Origin: a virus
DNA: 36,301 bases
Virus record (IMG/VR): IMGVR_UViG_3300035070_002982
Coordinates: 1 to 36,301 of that record
Direction: 5' to 3' (one strand)
The notes under the pieces are model-generated. The model was not told the origin of the DNA and searched no databases. It saw only the letters and a program-made list of their open reading frames with translations. Both the position numbers and the translations under genes were made by a program. This document shows positions 2,001-30,361 of this stretch, one piece after another (position 1 is the stretch's first letter; each line of letters begins with the position of its first letter).

Positions 2001-2486
2001 TTATGTAGTAATGTCTATTTTCCGTTTTTTTGTTTTTAATGTATGTTCTGGGTGGTTAAAATGACATTTATGACATAAAGTAATTAAACCATCCATATCT
2101 TTTTTAGAGTCACATAGTCTACTTTTTTTACCACATAACCCACCAAGATGATGTACGTCAAATCTTCTTTCATTTTTATTCCAAATTCTTTTGCATGTTT
2201 GACAAGTGTGATTATCTCTTATTCTAACTAATTCTCTAATATAATCTCTACCTGCTAAACCATACGCACCATTTCTTGTTTTAAAATTATATTTATTATT
2301 ATAATCAGTTTTTCCATTTTTTATAAACTCTAATTTACATTTTATTTTTTCAATACTCCAATTATTCAATATTTGACTAATTCTTTGATGTGTAATATCA
2401 AATAATTTTGATATTTCTGTTATTTTTTTACCACTTAATCTTTCTTGATGAATTAATATATATTTTTCTAATTTTTCTTTTTTCAT
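2001..2486 (-). CDS. HNH homing-type endonuclease with N-terminal HTH
   Basis: This is a 161-residue free-standing HNH protein. Residues about 18-41 (GKKITEISKLFDITHQRISQ) form a helix-turn-helix. The HNH/zinc module follows at about 90-145: CQTC (95-98), the VHH pair (111-113) and LCHKCHFNH (137-145). Such proteins nick or cut DNA and often behave as mobile homing elements. Its ATG overlaps the stop of the next HNH gene (ATGA). Base use is more A/T-rich than in the structural genes, fitting independent acquisition. Confidence 0.88.
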   Translation of the reverse strand: MKKEKLEKYILIHQERLSGKKITEISKLFDITHQRISQILNNWSIEKIKCKLEFIKNGKTDYNNKYNFKTRNGAYGLAGRDYIRELVRIRDNHTCQTCKRIWNKNERRFDVHHLGGLCGKKSRLCDSKKDMDGLITLCHKCHFNHPEHTLKTKKRKIDITT

Positions 2487-3034
2487 AATGATTTTATAAA
2501 ATTATCTAATAATTCAATCTCTTTTTTCAAATGGATACTTTCATTCATTTCTTTAACAAACTCTCCTGTTTCTTCTTTCATATTTGTTTTTACTCCATAT
2601 GTATCGTGAAACAATTTATGACATTTACAACACATAGCAATTAAGTGGTTATCTGGTTCATCTCCATATATACCAGTGTATACCTTATGGTGTAGTTGTA
2701 CATAATTTGTACTTTTACAACAAGAACATTGTTTTCCATGTTTTTTAAAATATCTGTTTTTTCTTTTTTCCCATAATTTGCTTATAATGTATGATTTGTA
2801 ACTTCTAACAGTTTTACGAATTTTTGGTTTTTTATTTTTCTTTTTTACATTTTTTCTTTTATCTTTCTCTTCTTTAGTCATCTTTCCTACTGTTCTTATA
2901 TGTTTTAACTTTCTTGACTTCTGAATATCATTCAACTCTTTGAACTTCTTTATCTCTTCTATTTGTATTTGTATGTTATCTAGTAAATTCATATGTTTGT
3001 TCTTTTGTTCAGCCACATCTCCCCCATACCCCAT
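2483..3034 (-). CDS. HNH endonuclease
   Basis: This is a 183-residue, very lysine-rich protein (long K/R run at about residues 55-80) with a C-terminal HNH module: CSCC, then QLHHKVY, then CCKCHKLFHD. The start is uncertain. ATG at 3034 gives 183 residues, but ATG at 2992 (MNLLDNIQIQ) removes an odd glycine-rich leader and may be correct. It lies directly downstream of the structured RNA at 3100-3290 and overlaps the second HNH gene by four bases, so the pair could be one mobile unit. Confidence 0.85.
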   Translation of the reverse strand: MGYGGDVAEQKNKHMNLLDNIQIQIEEIKKFKELNDIQKSRKLKHIRTVGKMTKEEKDKRKNVKKKNKKPKIRKTVRSYKSYIISKLWEKRKNRYFKKHGKQCSCCKSTNYVQLHHKVYTGIYGDEPDNHLIAMCCKCHKLFHDTYGVKTNMKEETGEFVKEMNESIHLKKEIELLDNFIKSL

Positions 3035-3311: not shown

Positions 3312-3587
3312 CTATTTTACTTTTAGTCTTCCGAAAAAGCACTTTCCAAAATGATCTGCTTTTTTACATACAGAAAAAAAGTAACGTAAATCATTAGTTG
3401 ATAAGTGTGCTACTTTCATAGCAACTGCCTTTGCTGTTATAGGTTTCCATTCAGTACCAACTCTTTCTTTATTTATTTCATCAAGTATATCTTTTATAAT
3501 CGCTTGTCGTTCGTTTGTTATTTTTGTTTCTTGTCGTTCTGGTAGAATATAACTAGCAAAGGAAAATAAGTCGCGGTCTTTTTCCAT
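3312..3587 (-). CDS. Hypothetical protein (91 aa), leaderless gene
   Basis: Small soluble protein with no recognised family. A helical middle (ERQAIIKDILDEINKERVG) is followed by KPITAKAVAMKVAHLSTNDL and a C-terminal FFSVCKKADHFGKCFFGRLK. The segment ITAKAVAMKVAHLS could be helix-turn-helix-like, so a DNA-binding or regulatory role is possible. Its ATG lies exactly six bases after a TATAAT box, so the mRNA probably starts at or next to the AUG. Confidence 0.7.
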   Translation of the reverse strand: MEKDRDLFSFASYILPERQETKITNERQAIIKDILDEINKERVGTEWKPITAKAVAMKVAHLSTNDLRYFFSVCKKADHFGKCFFGRLKVK

Positions 3588-3593
3588 ACTTTG

Positions 3594-3623
3594 ATTATAT
3601 CATGTACTATTTTTTAATTACAA
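3594..3623 (-). promoter_or_regulatory. Promoter giving a leaderless mRNA for 3312-3587
   Basis: Minus strand TTGTAA (3623-3618), 18 bases, TATAAT (3599-3594) in TGATATAAT context, then six bases and ATG (3587). The predicted start of transcription coincides with the start codon. Confidence 0.7.
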
Positions 3624-4506: not shown

Positions 4507-5943
4507 TTAAAAAATTGGTACATCTGTAACAATAGGATAGCCATTTTTTACAGTCATGAATGTAAATCCAGACAATGTAGTAAAGCCTAAACCTTTTGAG
4601 TAGTCGTTACCTGTAAACATTGAAGGCGTGTGTTGTACACGATACGTCATAGAATCGGCAAGGATTTTACGAGTGTGTAAGTGAGCCATTGATACAATGT
4701 TGAACTTTCCAACAAAACCATATTGATTAATAAGTAGTTCAGGATTTTTTTTACTTAATCCTAAATGACCATGTGTGAATATAAATCCACAGTCATCAAT
4801 CAGGCGACTTGCTACGTCATAGTCCCAAGATACTTTTATGTTATTACCAAATCGTGATTTTAGTACATAATGTACCCAGTGTACGACTTCACCTGTAACG
4901 TCTTCGTGATTGCTTGAAGTTACACGATCGTGATTACCAGAAACTAAGATAACTTCTGCAACATTGTTTACCTTTTCGATAAAACGGGTAAGGATTTCAG
5001 TAGCCATAATGGTTGCTTTAGTTCCGTATCCGTATTTTTTATCTATGTTTTTCCAACTGTTGATATGATTTAATCCAGTAAAGGTTTCAATCAAATCTCC
5101 GTTGATAACAAGTGTAAGCGATTTTGCTTTACGTTCGTTAATCTCTTTTGATACGTCATCGAGTTTTCTTTCAAGAATATCAATGTTGTATCCTGGTAAA
5201 TTACGCTGTGGTTCAATTTCTGCCCCAACGTGTAAGTCTGCTACGATTGCTACTGCATTTCCAATCTTTACATCAGTAGTCTTTTTAACCACTGGTGCAA
5301 GTTTTGATTGAGTAACATAATCTAACAGTTCAGTTTCAAACTCCTGTCTTCGTAAGTCAAGTTCGGCAATGGTTTTTATACCTTTGTCATACGCCTTTTT
5401 GCGTTGTTTTTCGTCTTCATAAACGATAACATCTCGCATATTTTTTGGCGTATACTTTTCTCCGATTTTTTGAGCAATCATGTCGCACTGTTCCTTTTCA
5501 GAATACAGCGAGAGTGTGTAAGGTGAGAAAACATCTGAATCTTTTACAAGGTCAAATGTTCTCTTAAACGATTGCCATTGAATAGCATTAAAACCATGTT
5601 TATTCTGGATCTTTACTTGTGAAAGGTTTAATCCATGAATAGAATACTCATAAAAGATTTGGTCTAATGTTTCTACTGGTATCTCCATGATTCCATGACG
5701 ATATTTCCAATTAACATTATTTCCTTTAATAAAGTATTTTGGTTTTTCTTCTTGTTCAATAGCGGTAACTGGGTTCAACTCCATTTCGGAATTGCTTTTT
5801 TGTAAGCGGTGCTTTTTTGTTCTGATTCCTGATTCGGTGTATTGCTCACCAAACTTTTCTTTAATCAGAACAACAAGTTCGCTAGCGTGCAAGTCTATAT
5901 TTTGTAATATAAACTCGTCAATTTGTTGTTTTAGATTTTTCAT
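4507..5943 (-). CDS. Large metallophosphoesterase with N-terminal helical domain
   Basis: This is a 478-residue protein. The C-terminal half (about 228-478) is a calcineurin-like phosphoesterase with the metal motifs in order: ADLHVGAEIE, NGDLIE, SGNHDR, THGHLG and MAHLH. Family members hydrolyse phosphodiester or phosphomonoester bonds with two metal ions (Mre11/SbcD, nucleotidases). The N-terminal 100 residues look like a winged-helix or HTH region (ASELVVLIKEKFGEQYTESGI), and about 105-130 (GLNLSQVKIQNKHGF) may be a second helical unit. A DNA-processing role such as an SbcD-like nuclease is inferred, not shown. It is monocistronic, with its own extended -10 promoter and terminator. Confidence 0.85.
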   Translation of the reverse strand: MKNLKQQIDEFILQNIDLHASELVVLIKEKFGEQYTESGIRTKKHRLQKSNSEMELNPVTAIEQEEKPKYFIKGNNVNWKYRHGIMEIPVETLDQIFYEYSIHGLNLSQVKIQNKHGFNAIQWQSFKRTFDLVKDSDVFSPYTLSLYSEKEQCDMIAQKIGEKYTPKNMRDVIVYEDEKQRKKAYDKGIKTIAELDLRRQEFETELLDYVTQSKLAPVVKKTTDVKIGNAVAIVADLHVGAEIEPQRNLPGYNIDILERKLDDVSKEINERKAKSLTLVINGDLIETFTGLNHINSWKNIDKKYGYGTKATIMATEILTRFIEKVNNVAEVILVSGNHDRVTSSNHEDVTGEVVHWVHYVLKSRFGNNIKVSWDYDVASRLIDDCGFIFTHGHLGLSKKNPELLINQYGFVGKFNIVSMAHLHTRKILADSMTYRVQHTPSMFTGNDYSKGLGFTTLSGFTFMTVKNGYPIVTDVPIF

Positions 5944-6008: not shown

Positions 6009-6203
6009 TTACATGAAGTTACTACTATCCCATAAATGAGGATATTTCTCTTGATAACTCTCTAACACTTTTAGGCAACGATTACATACAACATGAAGTC
6101 CGTCTCCTAATGGTGGAATAAAAAGTAAATCAAACTTCCCTTTTTCTTTTTTGCAAAAAATACATTCACCAGTTGTTTTTATGTTTTCTTTTATTCGTAC
6201 CAT
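6009..6203 (-). CDS. Small zinc-binding protein (64 aa)
   Basis: CIFCKKEKG near residue 14 and VVCNRCLKVL near residue 39 form a four-cysteine zinc site of the treble-clef or zinc-ribbon kind. The rest is a short helix (ESYQEKYPHLW). It may bind nucleic acid or host protein. Its ATG lies exactly six bases after a TACAAT box, suggesting a leaderless message. Confidence 0.72.
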   Translation of the reverse strand: MVRIKENIKTTGECIFCKKEKGKFDLLFIPPLGDGLHVVCNRCLKVLESYQEKYPHLWDSSNFM

Positions 6204-6209
6204 ATTTTC

Positions 6210-6237
6210 ATTGTAACAAGTGTGGTGTAATACACAA
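6210..6237 (-). promoter_or_regulatory. Promoter giving a leaderless mRNA for 6009-6203
   Basis: Minus strand TTGTGT (6237-6232), 16 bases, TACAAT (6215-6210), six bases, ATG (6203). Confidence 0.5.
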
Positions 6238-6941: not shown

Positions 6942-7484
6942 ATGAAAAAATGTATTGGTTGTGAAAACCTTATTACAAGCGACAAAAAGAAACTTTGTGT
7001 TTTCAAAAAGCAAAAGTTTTGTTCGAGGAAATGTGGATTAGTTTATAGGAATAAGGTTAATAATCCTATGAGTGACCCATTAGTTCTAGAAAAAATTAGT
7101 GGAAAAAATAGTAAGTTCTGGTTAGGTGAAAATGCTGGATATTTTTCAAAACATGATTGGATACGTGAACAGGGTATTAATCGAGAAAAGTGTTTACATT
7201 GTGGAATTAATGGATTCTTTTATAAAAACAATAGATGGAGTATAGAATTTTGTAATATATCTGGAGAATATAAAAGAATTATTGAAGACTGGATAACATT
7301 ATGTAGAAATTGTCATAGAAAAATGGACATAGGAAAAAGAGATCTTGTGGAAATAAAATGTAATGAATGTAATTGTTCGGTTTTAACAAAGTTTCCAAAT
7401 TATAAAAAATTTTGCGAAGGTTGTATACGAAAAAGACATAATCATAAGGTTAAATTAAGAAAAAGATATTTAAGGTTATTGTAA
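6942..7484 (+). CDS. HNH endonuclease with zinc-finger ends
   Basis: This is a 180-residue protein. The N-terminus has CIGCENL and FCSRKC, a four-cysteine zinc module. Residues about 50-70 (KNSKFWLGENAGYFSKHDWI) resemble DNA-contact segments of phage HNH proteins. The nuclease part is CLHCG (about 85-89), the SIEFCNISGEY region replacing the usual central HH, and LCRNCHRKMD (about 120-130). A second zinc pair (CNEC, then FCEGC) follows. Because the central HNH histidines are not clear (E/F in their place), activity is uncertain. It is flanked by hairpins and a terminator, like a self-contained mobile gene. Confidence 0.82.
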   Translation: MKKCIGCENLITSDKKKLCVFKKQKFCSRKCGLVYRNKVNNPMSDPLVLEKISGKNSKFWLGENAGYFSKHDWIREQGINREKCLHCGINGFFYKNNRWSIEFCNISGEYKRIIEDWITLCRNCHRKMDIGKRDLVEIKCNECNCSVLTKFPNYKKFCEGCIRKRHNHKVKLRKRYLRLL

Positions 7485-21975: not shown

Positions 21976-22695
21976 TTAGAAACTTGGTGTGTCTCTTGGA
22001 ATTACTTTTAATATCTCGTCTTTATTTCTACGACCATAGAATTTACGCAATTCTAGATTTTTCTTTTCAATTTCTGCACCTAATACTGTAATTTTATCAG
22101 TTAGGTTGTTAGCTACTGCGTAATCATAACTTGCTTTGAGTGAGATTAGTCGGTGTAATACTGTAGCGAATCCTGCTTCTTTATCTGTGTCTGTTGATAA
22201 GAAGTAGTTAGGTTCTCGCTGATAGTAAACTCGTAATCCTCCAGTTGAATCATAGTTTGGTGCTGGGTATAGGAATACAGAGTTAGCTAGTTTATCATAG
22301 TACATTGGTTGCCCATCTTCTTTCATGAACTCATCTCGTGCTTGCTGAATGTCTACAAGGTCAATAGGTTTAAGTTTTACCCAATCTCCTGTACTGTTTT
22401 TAATTTCAACTCGTGTAACTTTTAGGTGTGATACTGATAGAACATAATCACGTTGTGAGTTGTTTAGGTCTGTTGTTGCAATAGGATAATCACTGTAAGT
22501 TGTATCATCAAATTCCCATCGGTCATCTGATTCAAAGATAGAAGTAACTACTGAATCTAATGCTCGGTTAGATAATGATGTGAATGTTGCTAGGTTATTT
22601 GCATTACCTGAAATTGCTCCATAGTTTGACGCAAAAAGCCAGAACTCACAGTCCTGAATAATTCCATCTTTTGTAGTAGTGTTATTAAATGTCAT
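21976..22695 (-). CDS. Head-tail connector/adaptor protein
   Basis: This is a 239-residue protein when started at the ATG at 22695; the TTG-initiated extension to 22731 would read through the hairpin upstream and is rejected. The mainly helical C-terminus (VLHRLISLKASYDYAVANNL, then AEIEKKNLELRKFYGRRNKD) and the central YYDKLANSVFLYPAPNYDST are typical of gp4/gp6-type adaptor or head-completion proteins that dock under the portal. It follows the head genes and precedes the tail genes, as expected. Confidence 0.78.
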   Translation of the reverse strand: MTFNNTTTKDGIIQDCEFWLFASNYGAISGNANNLATFTSLSNRALDSVVTSIFESDDRWEFDDTTYSDYPIATTDLNNSQRDYVLSVSHLKVTRVEIKNSTGDWVKLKPIDLVDIQQARDEFMKEDGQPMYYDKLANSVFLYPAPNYDSTGGLRVYYQREPNYFLSTDTDKEAGFATVLHRLISLKASYDYAVANNLTDKITVLGAEIEKKNLELRKFYGRRNKDEILKVIPRDTPSF

Positions 22696-22703
22696 AGTTA
22701 TAT

Positions 22704-22746
22704 AAAAAAAACGAGAACTGCCATTAAGCAATCCCCGTTCTTCGGT
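22704..22746 (-). promoter_or_regulatory. Hairpin plus T run just before the connector start
   Basis: Minus strand ACCGAAGAACGGGGA then GGGGATTGC...GCAGTTCTC (nine pairs, several G-U) and eight T. The ATG follows nine bases later. The first 15 bases are identical to the hairpin before the portal gene (28498-28545). It may terminate upstream transcripts, set polarity or mark an RNA-processing site. Confidence 0.6.
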
Positions 22747-22768
22747 TGATTATGTTGTAATTATATCA

Positions 22769-24447: not shown

Positions 24448-25901
24448 TTATGAAGTTGTAATGATTTTTACAGCTGCGTTATCTCGGTTTTCAACTACTC
24501 CAAACAAAATGTCTGCAGTAGTTAAAGTTGAAAGATAATCAGGGATGTAAGAACTTTGTACACGAACGTTATGTTTACCAACCATTCCTTTTCCGTAAGT
24601 CATTACAGGAAGTGAAGAAGTTGCATAGTGGATAGCGTCTTTGTGAGCCAAAACGTTTACTCGTCCTCCTAGTACTACTGGTACATAAGTTGAAGAGTAT
24701 ACAGGGATTCCATATAGGAATGCTGCAGGCATTTTCGCTGTTGGGTCGTTAACTGGTGAGTTAATAGCCAAAGAGAATTTGTCTAGGTTTTGTACTTGTT
24801 TCCAGAATGTGTTTGGGTGCATGAAGAATGCTACTTCATCCATATCAACACAGTTTCCTTCCAAAGTTGCGATAGCTGCTCGGATGTCTGAATCTGCAAT
24901 AGCGGTTGCTGATGAACCTACTGATTGTGAGAATCCAGAGAATAGAGTTGCTACTGCTGTTTCCAATACTGCTGCGATTGTGTAACCAGCGTTTTTAGCG
25001 TATCGTTCTTGGATAGCGTAAGACTGTTTAACGAATGCTGCTTCTCGGTCTTCAATAGCAAATGATACTTCTTTCCATGTATCAATAACAAGGTCAATAG
25101 AAGTTTCAGTTGGACTGTTACTTTTGTGTTTTCTCCAATTACTTGGAGTGTCGGACTATATCTTCAATCTTTCGATTGTCGGGTGCTGTGGGCTTACCGT
25201 AGTATCCCTAGTCTCTGAACCTTCCATAGTCTTCCCTATGGCTCGGCTGCTGATTGACCTTCAATTATGAATTAAAGGCGTTCCAGCAATTCTCCCGATT
25301 TTGTTTTATGAACATTTTTGTGGCACTTAGTGCATAATGTGATTCCATTACTTTCATCATAAAAGAAATCATCATTACCATTTAATTTTCCATAATCATA
25401 TGTACTAATTATAGCACATTAACTGTCCAATAGATACCCCTAACAGTGAAGAAAGGGTAACTGCAACTGCGTTAGTTTTAGTGTTAGCTGACATTTCTGT
25501 CAAATTAGGAGTGTGTAGAGTGTCTCCACCTGCTGCTAATTCTCCTGATCGGTCTGTAAAGAAGTCAGTAATGATAAGTTTACATTTGAAGAAGTCGTTG
25601 ATTCGGTCTCCCCAAATTTCCATGTTGTTACTACCTATTTCTAGGCGGGTAGGGCATTTCTGCTACCTCTGCGTCTTCATGTATACACGCAGGTCGGACT
25701 ATCGCATCACCTTAATGGCAATAAGGCGTTTTTTCATTTAGTCTCTGCAAGTCCTCAGTTTAATAAATAAACAAGGTTCTTGAGGGTTACCCCATCGGGC
25801 TTTCCCCATTAATTAGAAAAAATTTTACATCCCCGAAATTATAGGTAAGGGATCATTACAGCCAAGTCTGTACTTGTGAATGTATCTGTTGCGAATGCCA
25901 T
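24448..25901 (-). CDS. Major capsid protein, split gene: exons 25901-25848, 25620-25454, 25120-24448
   Basis: Joining the three exons (54 + 167 + 673 bases) gives an unbroken 297-residue protein. Exon 1 encodes MAFATDTFTSTDLAVMIP. Exon 2 encodes EIWGDRINDFFKCKLIITDF through TNAVAVT. The leucine codon is split CT|T, and exon 3 continues NSPTETSIDLVIDTWKEVSF. An N-terminal arm, the SFAIEDREAAFVKQSY region and the late YGIPVYSST...GRVNVLAHKDAI segment fit an HK97-fold capsid subunit, and the gene follows the scaffold gene. Without splicing, translation stops at codon 21 (TAA). Exon ends match P1 guide pairing and terminal G of both introns. The start at 25901 is the only ATG in frame. Confidence 0.92.
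25121..25453 (-). ncRNA. Group I self-splicing intron 2 of the capsid gene (333 nt)
   Basis: All four conserved core elements are present on the minus strand: P GAATTGCTGGAAC (25292-25280), Q AATCAGCAGCC (25255-25245), R GTTCAGAGACTA (25220-25209) and S AAGATATAGTCC (25164-25153), plus a CAATC-GAAA-GATTG hairpin (P8). P1: exon end TACCCT (25459-25454) pairs with the guide GGGGTA (25440-25435), leaving the required U-G at the splice site. The intron ends in G (25121). Sequence is closest to the phage IA class. It contains the 3' stub of an HNH gene. Confidence 0.92.
25272..25415 (-). pseudogene. HNH homing endonuclease remnant inside intron 2
   Basis: An open frame without a start codon (…STYDYGKLNGNDDFFYDESN, then GITLCTKCHKNVHKTKSGEL and a stop) matches the C-terminal half of an intron-type HNH enzyme: the second zinc pair CTKC and the final KNVHK. 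The N-terminal half with the first CxxC and the HH is missing, so it is a deletion relic. Its end overlaps the P element, as seen in intact intron-borne HNH genes. Confidence 0.8.
25621..25847 (-). ncRNA. Group I self-splicing intron 1 of the capsid gene (227 nt)
   Basis: R-like element TGCAGAGACTAAA (25749-25737) and S-like element GCGATAGTCC (25705-25696) form P7. P8 is CGCCTTA/TAAGGTG (25729-25709). P4-P6 is compact: GGGG/CCCT, GCCC/GGGT, CAAG-aac-CTTG. P9 has CTGCGT/ACGCAG, and a CCTA-GAAA-TAGG hairpin follows. P1: exon end ATCCCT (25853-25848) pairs with the guide GGGGAT (25834-25829), with U-G at the splice site. The last intron base is G (25621). It is short, has no ORF, and is clearly different in sequence from intron 2. 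Confidence 0.87.
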
Positions 25902-26742: not shown

Positions 26743-28497
26743 TTATTGTGCAGGTTGTCCTGGAACTACTGGTAATGTAGGTGCTACTGGTGCTTCTGCT
26801 TGTGCCTGTGCTTGTTCTACAGGTGATGCGGTCATACTGTTACCCATACCAAGTGATATAGGAGATATACCTGAACCAGATACTTCTAATATTTTTGCAA
26901 ATACTTTTGATAGCGTTGGGTCAGTTAATACTTGTGGTGCTTTAGCAGCAGTCATAAGTACATTGTTAAGTGATTCAAGGATAACTGCTTTGTTTTTCTG
27001 TTCTCCAGTTGTAAGAATAGTTACTTTTGGTTTCCAGTTTTTATACTGTCCTTTTGGAATATCTAAGAATCGTTTATCTTTAGATTTCTTCAATAGGTCT
27101 TTTGTTTCTGCTACTAATTTAGCGTAATCTTCTGCATAGATAGGATTACCTGCTAATATAGATGCTTTAACTTTTTGATTAGCTTCAAAGTTAGCGAATG
27201 AATCGTCAATAGCTGCTAATTCATCTGGTGTAAACTCTGCTGCTAGAATATGTGCTTTGTTGAATTTCTTTAATAGGTAAGGGATAATCCAATCAGTAAA
27301 GATTTCTACTAAGAATATTCCCATCTCTTCTCTACGATAATCAAACATTGAGGTAGCCTCTTGATTCAAGATAGCTGTAGTTCGGTAAGCTGTACCTGAT
27401 GGCATAGTCTCACCTGTTACTGCGTTGAATGTTGAGGTTGTTTTCTCTAGTTGAGAATCCCATGATTGAATCAGTTGTCTGAACTCTGGGAGATTGTTAG
27501 TAATTGTGTTAGCAATAGCTAAATCAGAACCTTGTGCAATCTTAATGATTTGTCCATTCTCTACTTCTGATAGAATATTGTTTTGGATGTTAGGGTCAGT
27601 TGATTTAAAGATTACTTTAGAACCAAGTTCCATAGCTTCTTTTTCTTTAATAACTGCGTCATTAGTCCACTGTTGAGCTTCAAAACCATCTTCTACAATT
27701 CCACGACCTAATCGTCCATTTACTTTTTCCCATGCAAGATATTTGTAAGGGAACTCGTCTAGGAACTCATGGTACATGATAACTGCTTTACCTGATTTTG
27801 TTTTGTTATACATTATGAACTTTTGGATTCGATAAGTATATTCGTCTCCTCCTTCTGGTGCATATGCTTCAGGAAGTTCTGCGGTAAGTTCAAACACTTC
27901 AAGTTTACCTGCTGGTGTTTTTCGTACTACATCAATAGCTTCTCGTACTCCGTCCCATACTCCATCTTTCTCTGCTAGTTCATTTTCTGTCATGTAGTGC
28001 TTTTCAATTACCATTTCATCAGGACATCCTGGGTCAACGATAACATTACGCCAATCTACTACTTCAAGTTCTAGTTCTTCTTCTTCTCCTTCTTCTTGTT
28101 CCATACATTTCTTAACCAATACTCCACCAAACTTAGCACGTGTTTGTCCCATTTCATTTAGTGTTTGAGCAAAGTTAGAATCTTTCATCCAGTTGTATAC
28201 TTCCTTTTGTAATAGGAATGACATAGGCATGAACTGTGGCTCATCTGCTACGATTTGAATATCTTTAGTATCAAGGTCAGTTGCTCGTGTTGCTACGTTC
28301 ACTCGGAAATTAACAATGTTAAAGAATGGTTTTAATTTACCACGTCTATCCTTTTGCCCTGATTCATATTTACTCTCTGTGTAGTAAAGAATCTTTTTTA
28401 ATGTTTGATGTGCGTTAAAAGTAAGACCTTCAGTAATCTGAACGTTTCCTCTTTCCCATAATTCTATTTTGTCTTTGACGAACTTTGTAATATCCAT
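26743..28497 (-). CDS. Portal protein
   Basis: This is a 584-residue protein. Portal features are the N-terminal wing (HQTLKKILYYTESKYESGQK; FFNIVNFRVNVATRATDLDT), an acidic insert EQEEGEEEELELEVVDWRNV with the conserved VVDWRNVIVDPGCPDE turn, a stem/crown region (QQWTNDAVIKEKEAMELGSK; FRQLIQSWDSQLEKTTSTFN) and a C-terminal Ala/Gln/Pro tail. The portal forms the dodecameric DNA entry vertex and binds TerL and the connector. It follows the terminase genes and precedes the scaffold, in the usual head order. Confidence 0.88.
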   Translation of the reverse strand: MDITKFVKDKIELWERGNVQITEGLTFNAHQTLKKILYYTESKYESGQKDRRGKLKPFFNIVNFRVNVATRATDLDTKDIQIVADEPQFMPMSFLLQKEVYNWMKDSNFAQTLNEMGQTRAKFGGVLVKKCMEQEEGEEEELELEVVDWRNVIVDPGCPDEMVIEKHYMTENELAEKDGVWDGVREAIDVVRKTPAGKLEVFELTAELPEAYAPEGGDEYTYRIQKFIMYNKTKSGKAVIMYHEFLDEFPYKYLAWEKVNGRLGRGIVEDGFEAQQWTNDAVIKEKEAMELGSKVIFKSTDPNIQNNILSEVENGQIIKIAQGSDLAIANTITNNLPEFRQLIQSWDSQLEKTTSTFNAVTGETMPSGTAYRTTAILNQEATSMFDYRREEMGIFLVEIFTDWIIPYLLKKFNKAHILAAEFTPDELAAIDDSFANFEANQKVKASILAGNPIYAEDYAKLVAETKDLLKKSKDKRFLDIPKGQYKNWKPKVTILTTGEQKNKAVILESLNNVLMTAAKAPQVLTDPTLSKVFAKILEVSGSGISPISLGMGNSMTASPVEQAQAQAEAPVAPTLPVVPGQPAQ

Positions 28498-28545
28498 ATA
28501 AAAAAGGGAAATAGCGTTTAAGCTATCTCCCCGTTCTTCGGTGAA
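28498..28545 (-). promoter_or_regulatory. Hairpin plus T run directly before the portal start
   Basis: Minus strand ACCGAAGAACGGGGA leads into GGGAGATAGC-ttaaac-GCTATTTCCC (ten pairs, one G-U) and TTTTTT. The ATG follows after two bases (AT-ATG). It looks like an intrinsic terminator, but the portal has no promoter after it, so partial read-through or processing is implied. The same 15-base lead-in occurs before the connector gene. Confidence 0.65.
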
Positions 28546-28548
28546 GAG

Positions 28549-28701
28549 TTATTGATTTGGTGATAAAATTATTTTCTCTGACTTATGTACCAAAAATGTA
28601 TCGAACTTACCTAATTTGTCAGTCGATATTTCTATTTTACCATAAGGAGGTAAATCTCGCAATATAGAAATTAGTTTTTGTTCAACAGCAGTTAGTTGCA
28701 T
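28549..28701 (-). CDS. Small protein between terminase and portal (50 aa), leaderless
   Basis: MQLTAVEQKLISILRDLPPY then GKIEISTDKLGKFDTFLVHK and SEKIILSPNQ: one helix followed by short strands. The ATG is exactly six bases after TATAAT, and the promoter overlaps the end of the terminase gene. The helix-then-strands form and size fit a small regulator, but no family is recognised. Confidence 0.65.
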   Translation of the reverse strand: MQLTAVEQKLISILRDLPPYGKIEISTDKLGKFDTFLVHKSEKIILSPNQ

Positions 28702-28707
28702 ACGTGT

Positions 28708-28737
28708 ATTATATCATACGTTATCATTATTTGACAA
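28708..28737 (-). promoter_or_regulatory. Promoter giving a leaderless mRNA, probable start of the portal transcript
   Basis: Minus strand TTGTCA (28737-28732), 18 bases, TATAAT (28713-28708) in TATGATATAAT, six bases, ATG (28701). The extended -10 shares bases with the TGA stop of the terminase gene. Confidence 0.75.
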
Positions 28738-29904
28738 TATCATTCTTGTAACTGCGAACTGTTTTAGTCGTTCTTTATCGTGTTGCTTTGGTGCAAGTGA
28801 TGTAAATGCATAACGTACTGCATCAAGTGCGTGGTCTAATCCTCCCTCTGGCTCGTTTAATATCTTTCCTGTTTTATCAGTTGCCCATAAGTAGTTACGA
28901 TATTCTTTAATTAAATTACCAGAACGCTTTGTTACAGATATACGTTGTTGCTGTACATACTGTATGCCTTGATTGATTGAACCTGCACCTTTTACAGCAG
29001 GCATCATGTTAATCCCATACAGTCTAATCTCGTCAATACTCTTTGGCTCTGCACTATCTGCGATAATAAGTATCGGTTCTAGGTTTTTTATAACGTCTGT
29101 AATCTGTTTGTTACTCATTCCTTTCTGATAGCATACTTCATCTAAGATATATCCTCCGTTGTAATAGTAAATATCTACAATAGCGGTTGGGTCGTTAGTA
29201 TATCCAAAGTCTAATCCTCTACGTTCTAGTCGTGCTTCATGTGGTATTTCGTCAATTATGTTCCAGTCTTTGTAAATCTTTCCTTCTACTTCTCCTAGTT
29301 GTCCCTCTCCGTATACTTGCCACCAACCTTTACGATTCTTACGCTGTTCAATAGACGCAACAATCTCTGGCGATAATGCTTCGTTGTCTTTATAAGTTAA
29401 GATAACTTTTTCCCAGTCATCACGATTAGGCATTACATCTGTAAATAGCCAGAACTCATTTGTTGGGTTGTAGTCTAGGTAAACAAACTCTTTAGTACGC
29501 ACTTCTAGCTGATCAAAAGCGTCTAGTGTACAGTTGTTAGCTTCGTTCATGAATAGTCTATCACGTCTAGCTCCTCGTAATTTGTCACCATTGTCAGTTG
29601 AAAAGAACTCCATTTTACTTCCTGTCTCGAAAGTATATATACTATCTGTTGCGTTCCATAATGCGTCTTTCCAATAACCATGTGCAATCATTATGTTACG
29701 GAAGTCTCGAATTGCTCCACGTTTAAGGTGTGGGATACTTTCTGATACTACAGAAGTTAATGTTGGTTTATTATCTGACTGGCACAAGTTAATTAACCAT
29801 AGCAGGATTGATATAGTTTTACTCGCTGATGTTCCCCCCTGTGCTATTCGTATCTTCTTGGTCATCTGGCTTATTTTCTTTAGTGATGTCGTTGCTTGAT
29901 ACAT
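28714..29904 (-). CDS. terL: Terminase large subunit
   Basis: This is a 396-residue DNA-packaging motor and nuclease. ATPase: Walker A GGTSASKT at 23-30, Walker B RLFMNEAN at 116-123, coupling YNPT at 145-148. Nuclease: GLDFGYTNDPTA with D232, IADSAEP with D283, GLDHALDAVRYAF with D357/D361. The pattern is that of the PBSX/Terminase_3-type family. It overlaps the small subunit by 86 bases with the start at 29904; ATG 29865 (MTKKIRIAQGG) is a possible alternative. Confidence 0.93.
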   Translation of the reverse strand: MYQATTSLKKISQMTKKIRIAQGGTSASKTISILLWLINLCQSDNKPTLTSVVSESIPHLKRGAIRDFRNIMIAHGYWKDALWNATDSIYTFETGSKMEFFSTDNGDKLRGARRDRLFMNEANNCTLDAFDQLEVRTKEFVYLDYNPTNEFWLFTDVMPNRDDWEKVILTYKDNEALSPEIVASIEQRKNRKGWWQVYGEGQLGEVEGKIYKDWNIIDEIPHEARLERRGLDFGYTNDPTAIVDIYYYNGGYILDEVCYQKGMSNKQITDVIKNLEPILIIADSAEPKSIDEIRLYGINMMPAVKGAGSINQGIQYVQQQRISVTKRSGNLIKEYRNYLWATDKTGKILNEPEGGLDHALDAVRYAFTSLAPKQHDKERLKQFAVTRMILSNNDNV

Positions 29905-30268
29905 AGTTCATTAGTATTGGTGTTGGTAATGCTTCACCATCTTTACCTGTGTTTTCCATACGTTTACTATAAAATCTTTTGTTTAGTGATTCAAGTGTAA
30001 ACTTTGTCATATCACCCTTTAATCTATCATCTTCTGCGTCTAGTAACACTTCTAGGTTAGCTTCTGCTTTCTGTAATAGCCTTTCATGCTTATAGGATAA
30101 GAGTTTGTCGGAGAAACCTTTATAGTTCTCATAATCCCAATCTCTCATTGTAGCATAAGGAATTTCTAATGATTCTGATATTTGTCGTAGATTCATACCA
30201 TCTAAAACAAGGTCTTTAATTTTCCGATAGAGGTGATCATCTAATAATGTTGGACGTCCTGGATTCAT
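29819..30268 (-). CDS. terS: Terminase small subunit, leaderless
   Basis: This is a 149-residue protein. Starting at ATG 30268 (MNPGRPTLLDDHLYRKIKDL), it has an N-terminal helix-turn-helix (MNLRQISESLEIPYATMRDW, about 25-44) for DNA recognition, a helical middle (KHERLLQKAEANLEVLLDAE) and a disordered C-terminus (KPDDQEDTNSTGGNISE) that would contact TerL. The TTG-initiated longer reading to 30304 runs through the promoter and is rejected: TATAAT lies six bases before this ATG. Confidence 0.85.
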   Translation of the reverse strand: MNPGRPTLLDDHLYRKIKDLVLDGMNLRQISESLEIPYATMRDWDYENYKGFSDKLLSYKHERLLQKAEANLEVLLDAEDDRLKGDMTKFTLESLNKRFYSKRMENTGKDGEALPTPILMNYVSSNDITKENKPDDQEDTNSTGGNISE

Positions 30269-30274
30269 ATAGCT

Positions 30275-30304
30275 ATTATAACATAAAAACCTGCTGTTAA
30301 GCAA
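30275..30304 (-). promoter_or_regulatory. Promoter of the packaging genes, leaderless
   Basis: Minus strand TTGCTT (about 30303-30299), 18 bases, TATAAT (30280-30275) in TATGTTATAAT, six bases, ATG (30268). Confidence 0.75.
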
Positions 30305-30361
30305 GTCTTTATTTCTTCTTTCCTAATCCTTTAGCCAAGGAAATTGCAATAATTTGATTTG

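Follow-up and report, generated by a model that had tools for sequence, protein, structure and literature searches.

The virus window, by which we mean the whole stretch of DNA analysed here, is a 36.3-kb IMG/VR record with 33.6% GC, in which genes for terS, terL, an SU10-type adaptor, an Erf-type annealing protein and a metallophosphoesterase can be recognized, together with one tRNA-Pro and a group I intron. The intron (25132-25386, minus strand) separates the two parts of a probable major capsid gene (25405-25623 and 24448-24966). Two ORFs coding for HNH-like, Cys/His-rich proteins (2001-3034 and 6942-7484) are possibly homing endonucleases, judging their translations by eye.

On the minus strand, which is the gene-rich strand of the window, four ATGs (3587, 6203, 28701 and 30268) have a -10 box upstream, with exactly six bases between the end of the box and the start codon. 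The first-pass annotation had described these four sites as TATAAT-N6-ATG; the exact spacing holds at all of them, but the box at 6210 reads TACAAT (TACAAT-N6-ATG at 6201-6215). The other three (3585-3599, 28699-28713 and 30266-30280) are the only occurrences of TATAAT-N6-ATG in the window, all on the minus strand. All four boxes are extended -10 elements (TGNTAYAAT), TGNTATAAT in three cases and TGTTACAAT in one, and the spacers of 18, 18, 18 and 16 initially reported were recovered when measured to TTG-type -35 elements. Considering ORFs of at least 50 codons, TGNTAYAAT-N6-ATG opens an ORF four times in the window, against 0.01 expected from 300 dinucleotide shuffles, and plain TATAAT-N6-ATG three times against 0.04. 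The arrangement of -10 box, six bases and ATG in this window is thus real. That an AT-rich genome, replete with TATAAT-like and ATG words, would produce it by chance is highly improbable: a search tolerating one mismatch did remain at chance level (30 found versus 33 expected from shuffles), and such counts proved uninformative as a test of the pattern, whereas the exact ORF-opening pattern far exceeds shuffles and a peak at a single distance recurs in related phages and in Patescibacteria, with Bacteroidota near control. Since plain TANNNT shows no clear distance peak, the signal is carried by the extended box.

Regarding terS (29819-30268, minus strand, 149 aa), its extended -10 box TGTTATAAT (30275-30283) has six bases between its last T and the ATG and is separated by a spacer of 18 from the -35 element TTGCTT (30299-30304), so that the start codon coincides with the predicted transcription start. 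The ORF had been listed as 29819-30304; however, the TTG at 30304 is the beginning of the promoter's own -35 hexamer and was rejected as a start. The match to the terminase-small-subunit profile covers the 30268 protein from residue 3 onwards, and the correction of the terS start to this position, already proposed from the sequence, is therefore right. An 11-bp hairpin followed by a T-run (30285-30310, minus strand; z -5.3 and -3.4) overlaps the -35 element and spacer of this promoter and is present in the related locus L004 too. It is probably the terminator of the unit located upstream of terS, in which case terS would depend on its own leaderless message.

The second promoter of this region, with extended -10 box TGATATAAT (28708-28716, minus strand) and -35 element TTGTCA (28737-28732, spacer 18), had been placed before the portal gene. 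Its position is correct, although the gene that it heads is not the portal itself but a 50-aa ORF (28549-28701, minus strand) between terL and portal, predicted to be leaderless. This ORF is 94% identical in L004 and has, reading by eye, a recognizable homologue in L086, where the gene is present without the N6 promoter; it looks like a real conserved gene. The gene in portal position (26743-28497, minus strand) follows downstream of this promoter.

The two remaining N6 sites, both on the minus strand, head small ORFs also predicted to be leaderless. The extended -10 box TGATATAAT at 3594-3602 (-35 element TTGTAA at 3623-3618, spacer 18) precedes a 91-aa ORF without family match (3312-3587), while TGTTACAAT at 6210-6218 (-35 element TTGTGT at 6237-6232, spacer 16) precedes a 64-aa ORF (6009-6203) with a CxxC...CxxC arrangement, possibly a zinc ribbon. 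A search for relatives of these two genes returned none that was convincing, and two of the four starts hence depend on the reading frame.

Extended -10 boxes situated at most 120 nt upstream of the 54 listed starts have distances of 6, 6, 6, 6, 28, 34 and 83, which implies that leaderless and leadered promoters coexist in the window. The box at distance 28 (TGATATAAT, 22760-22768, minus strand, with an A at the predicted transcription start 22753) belongs to the adaptor gene (21976-22731), whose start is probably ATG 22695 (239 aa) rather than TTG 22731; with this correction the distance becomes 64, with 58 nt from the predicted transcription start to the ATG. At 5943, 34 nt separate the -10 box from the ATG. 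The leaderless reading is consequently restricted to some promoters, the adaptor and phosphoesterase genes being leadered.

The translation signals of the window are in line with this pattern. As suggested by the first inspection, Shine-Dalgarno (SD) sites are rare: SD cores were found upstream of 4 of the 54 starts, which is the background level (5.9%), and none precedes any of the four N6 starts. T occupies position -1 before 89% of the ATG starts (ORFs of at least 80 aa), and at 10 of the 54 starts the ATG follows the previous stop codon after one base (TAAT|ATG), suggesting reinitiation after termination. Additional information on the position of the transcription start comes from extended -10 sites without nearby ATG. 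In phages, 25 of 39 such sites (64%, P 2e-4) have an A seven positions past the -10 box, and so do 55 of 88 (62%, P 1e-6) in the Saccharibacterium genome G012, a preference clearly exceeding that of neighbouring positions in both sets; it was not seen when 41 sites of other Patescibacteria were pooled, a small sample in which A made up 34%. These ATG-less sites independently place the transcription start at the very position that the ATG takes in N6 genes. Moreover, a T precedes the start A at 91% of the N6 sites in phages, fitting a pyrimidine-purine initiator, and G012 has at N6 45 ATG, 0 GTG and 0 TTG codons.

Counting the distance between -10 box and ATG in related phages and in candidate hosts had been proposed as a check, and both counts speak for the leaderless start. 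A TerL search led to 47 viral loci which, together with the window, contain TGNTATAAT 71 times versus 26 times in the reversed sequence, with an ATG at N6 in 14 cases. After removal of near-duplicates and addition of the TGNTAYAAT pattern and of loci from genome bins, 105 non-redundant extended -10 sites were obtained, 11 of which have an ORF-opening ATG at N6 versus about 0.7 per other distance (Poisson P about 2e-10). The gene located just before terL has the box at distance 6 in the window, L004, L011, L014/L015, L017 and L032, and at distance 7 in L016 and L084. These nine loci, which include one near-identical pair, have mostly dissimilar surrounding sequences; between the window and L004, the six bases differ while their number is kept. 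N6 sites number 13 in 38 SD-poor records versus 2 in 17 SD-rich ones, counts that include some near-duplicates and come from an SD-poor set also richer in extended -10 boxes per kb. Two phages found within Patescibacteria bins (L057 and L073) use SD sequences and have no N6 site, and no leaderless signal was found in L051, a 176-kb contig of a Geobacteraceae bin.

These distributions also bear on the possibility that the transcription start lies 1-4 nt upstream of the ATG, yielding near-leaderless messages with very short leaders. N7, N8 and N9 are indeed enriched as well, in phages (5, 3 and 3 of the 105 sites) and in G012 (14, 7 and 9 of 171 sites), and the portal genes of several relatives have their box at N8-N11. 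N6 is nevertheless the sharpest peak (40 of the 171 sites in G012), and ATG-less sites favour A at exactly the corresponding position, making very short leaders an unlikely explanation for the N6 genes, for which a start on the ATG itself is preferred.

Regarding the host, it is probably a Patescibacterium (CPR), as judged from sequence comparisons. TerL relatives with 55-66% identity occur in the genome bins G003, G007, G010 and G011. The last is a bin named Woesebacteria, while phylum draws around the three others return the same genomes as those around the Saccharibacterium G012, which identifies them as Patescibacteria; this way of naming hosts was clearer than a 16S BLAST comparison of the bins. 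Related phage sequence is accordingly found in Patescibacteria bins, which, like other bins, can be contaminated. In G012, TGNTATAAT-N6-ATG occurs 85 times versus 0 in the reversed sequence, and the box lies at N6 upstream of 35 of the 305 long ORFs and at N6-N9 upstream of 61 (about a fifth). In 58 further Patescibacteria genomes, the motif was counted 268 times versus 23 in the control (a 12-fold excess), so that the exact spacing is strongly enriched in this candidate host phylum. Random samples of further Patescibacteria gave, for 100 boxes, 9 at N6, 3 at N7 and none at N0-N5; many sampled regions have few N6 sites. Many of the sampled genomes are also SD-sparse, and some have, like the window, a strong T at -1. 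G012, with SD sequences at 45% of its long ORFs, is for this reason a relative within the host phylum and not a model of the phage's host. Since two Patescibacteria 16S genes retain the CCTCC anti-SD, SD use is possible but sparse in these bacteria.

The leaderless promoters could also be real and the host belong to a different bacterial lineage, poor in SD sequences and with TATAAT promoters. TerL relatives are present in bins named Geobacteraceae, Elusimicrobia, DPANN archaea, Bacteroidales and Arthrobacter, which leaves the host inferred rather than proven, and this TerL family is shared by Flavobacterium phages, the best matches in the phage collection (44.5% identity). A Bacteroidota host, prompted by these matches, was rejected: Flavobacterium prophage loci prefer A at -1 and show no TGNTAYAAT-N6-ATG, unlike the window with its T, and 41 Bacteroidota genomes, whose total size is nearly three times that of the Patescibacteria set, contain the motif 75 times versus 38 in the control (a 2-fold excess). 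With the four bins at 55-66% TerL identity being Patescibacteria, another lineage appears doubtful, if somewhat less so than very short leaders. Archaeal TATA boxes lie near -26, and the bacterial -10 box does not fit an archaeal host.

Altogether, the distance peak, the A preference, the exclusive use of ATG and the background-level SD frequency support the leaderless start proposed for terS and other genes. From the spacing and its enrichment and from these features, we infer where the mRNAs begin, how ribosomes engage them and which host is involved, with a probability of roughly 0.8: sigma-70 promoters would set +1 on the ATG, several genes that open a transcription unit would be leaderless, and the host would most likely be a Patescibacterium. 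The promoters would be ordinary sigma-70-type ones (TTG-N17/18-TGNTATAAT), in which the start preferred by the polymerase, seven bases past the -10 box, falls on the A of the start codon. These unit-head genes, including terS, would be transcribed into leaderless mRNAs and translated from a 5'-terminal AUG without SD. Genes internal to operons, also without SD, would probably be reached by reinitiation or coupling; their ATG is either set off by one base from the stop codon before it (TAAT|ATG) or has T at -1 in A/T-rich surroundings. Neither mode would require an SD sequence, which would match a host among Patescibacteria, with their widespread class of leaderless promoters and many SD-sparse genomes.

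Leaderless genes are an established phenomenon in bacteria, where the same position of the -10 box serves to define them (PMC3160421). They have been described in Actinobacteria and Deinococcus-Thermus (Zheng et al. 2011, PMC3160421) and in M. tuberculosis (PMC3898074). In these groups, as in the window, the -10 box lies some 12 nt ahead of the start codon, and leaderless and leadered genes occur in one genome. The features of bacterial leaderless (TA-led) genes are found here as well: box position, no SD upstream and, in G012, AUG only. The present cases differ from those by their full extended -10 box TGNTATAAT and by mostly low- to medium-GC genomes, and are known from sequence. Patescibacteria and their phages are not among the groups highlighted there (PMC3160421). 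The window likewise resembles Bacteroidota, with their non-SD translation, in being almost SD-free with an A/T-rich context upstream of starts. Among phages, lambda cI expressed from PRM is a leaderless transcript whose mRNA, as predicted here, starts at the AUG; lambda cI is however a single regulatory gene, while here several genes of one phage would be leaderless, the packaging gene terS among them, with many relatives also concerned.

On a broader scale, leaderless initiation may be standard and ancestral across Patescibacteria, their phages having adapted to it by abandoning SD sequences entirely and combining leaderless unit-head genes with stop-T-ATG reinitiation in operons, such that the promoter spacing by itself would flag CPR phages; this extension is tentative, and we would rather bet against it than for it. 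In the open-licence PMC literature, we found no report of leaderless genes in CPR, Saccharibacteria, Patescibacteria or their phages, and, the search being restricted to such papers, a phylum-wide statement can be considered moderately new. Patescibacteria represent a vast and mostly uncultured share of the diversity of bacteria. Should their promoters frequently lie on the start codon, gene callers seeking SD sequences would misplace their starts, a sequence signature would help to predict the hosts of CPR phages, and leaderless translation could be studied on the streamlined CPR ribosome.

Finally, strong hairpins with T-runs are found on the minus strand at 28490-28545 and 22693-22750, at the portal-position and adaptor genes. 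The terminator-like portal hairpin (28505-28532) ends 7 nt before the portal ATG and the adaptor one 13 nt before the adaptor ATG; one and the same 14-mer, CCGAAGAACGGGGA, stands in front of each. In L004, this motif and a hairpin recur at both places, and L086 has the portal hairpin with a re-paired stem. These hairpins look like attenuators or antitermination sites of late genes, and in the interval 28549-28716 the 50-aa ORF, between promoter and portal hairpin, has the layout of a leader peptide with its attenuator.
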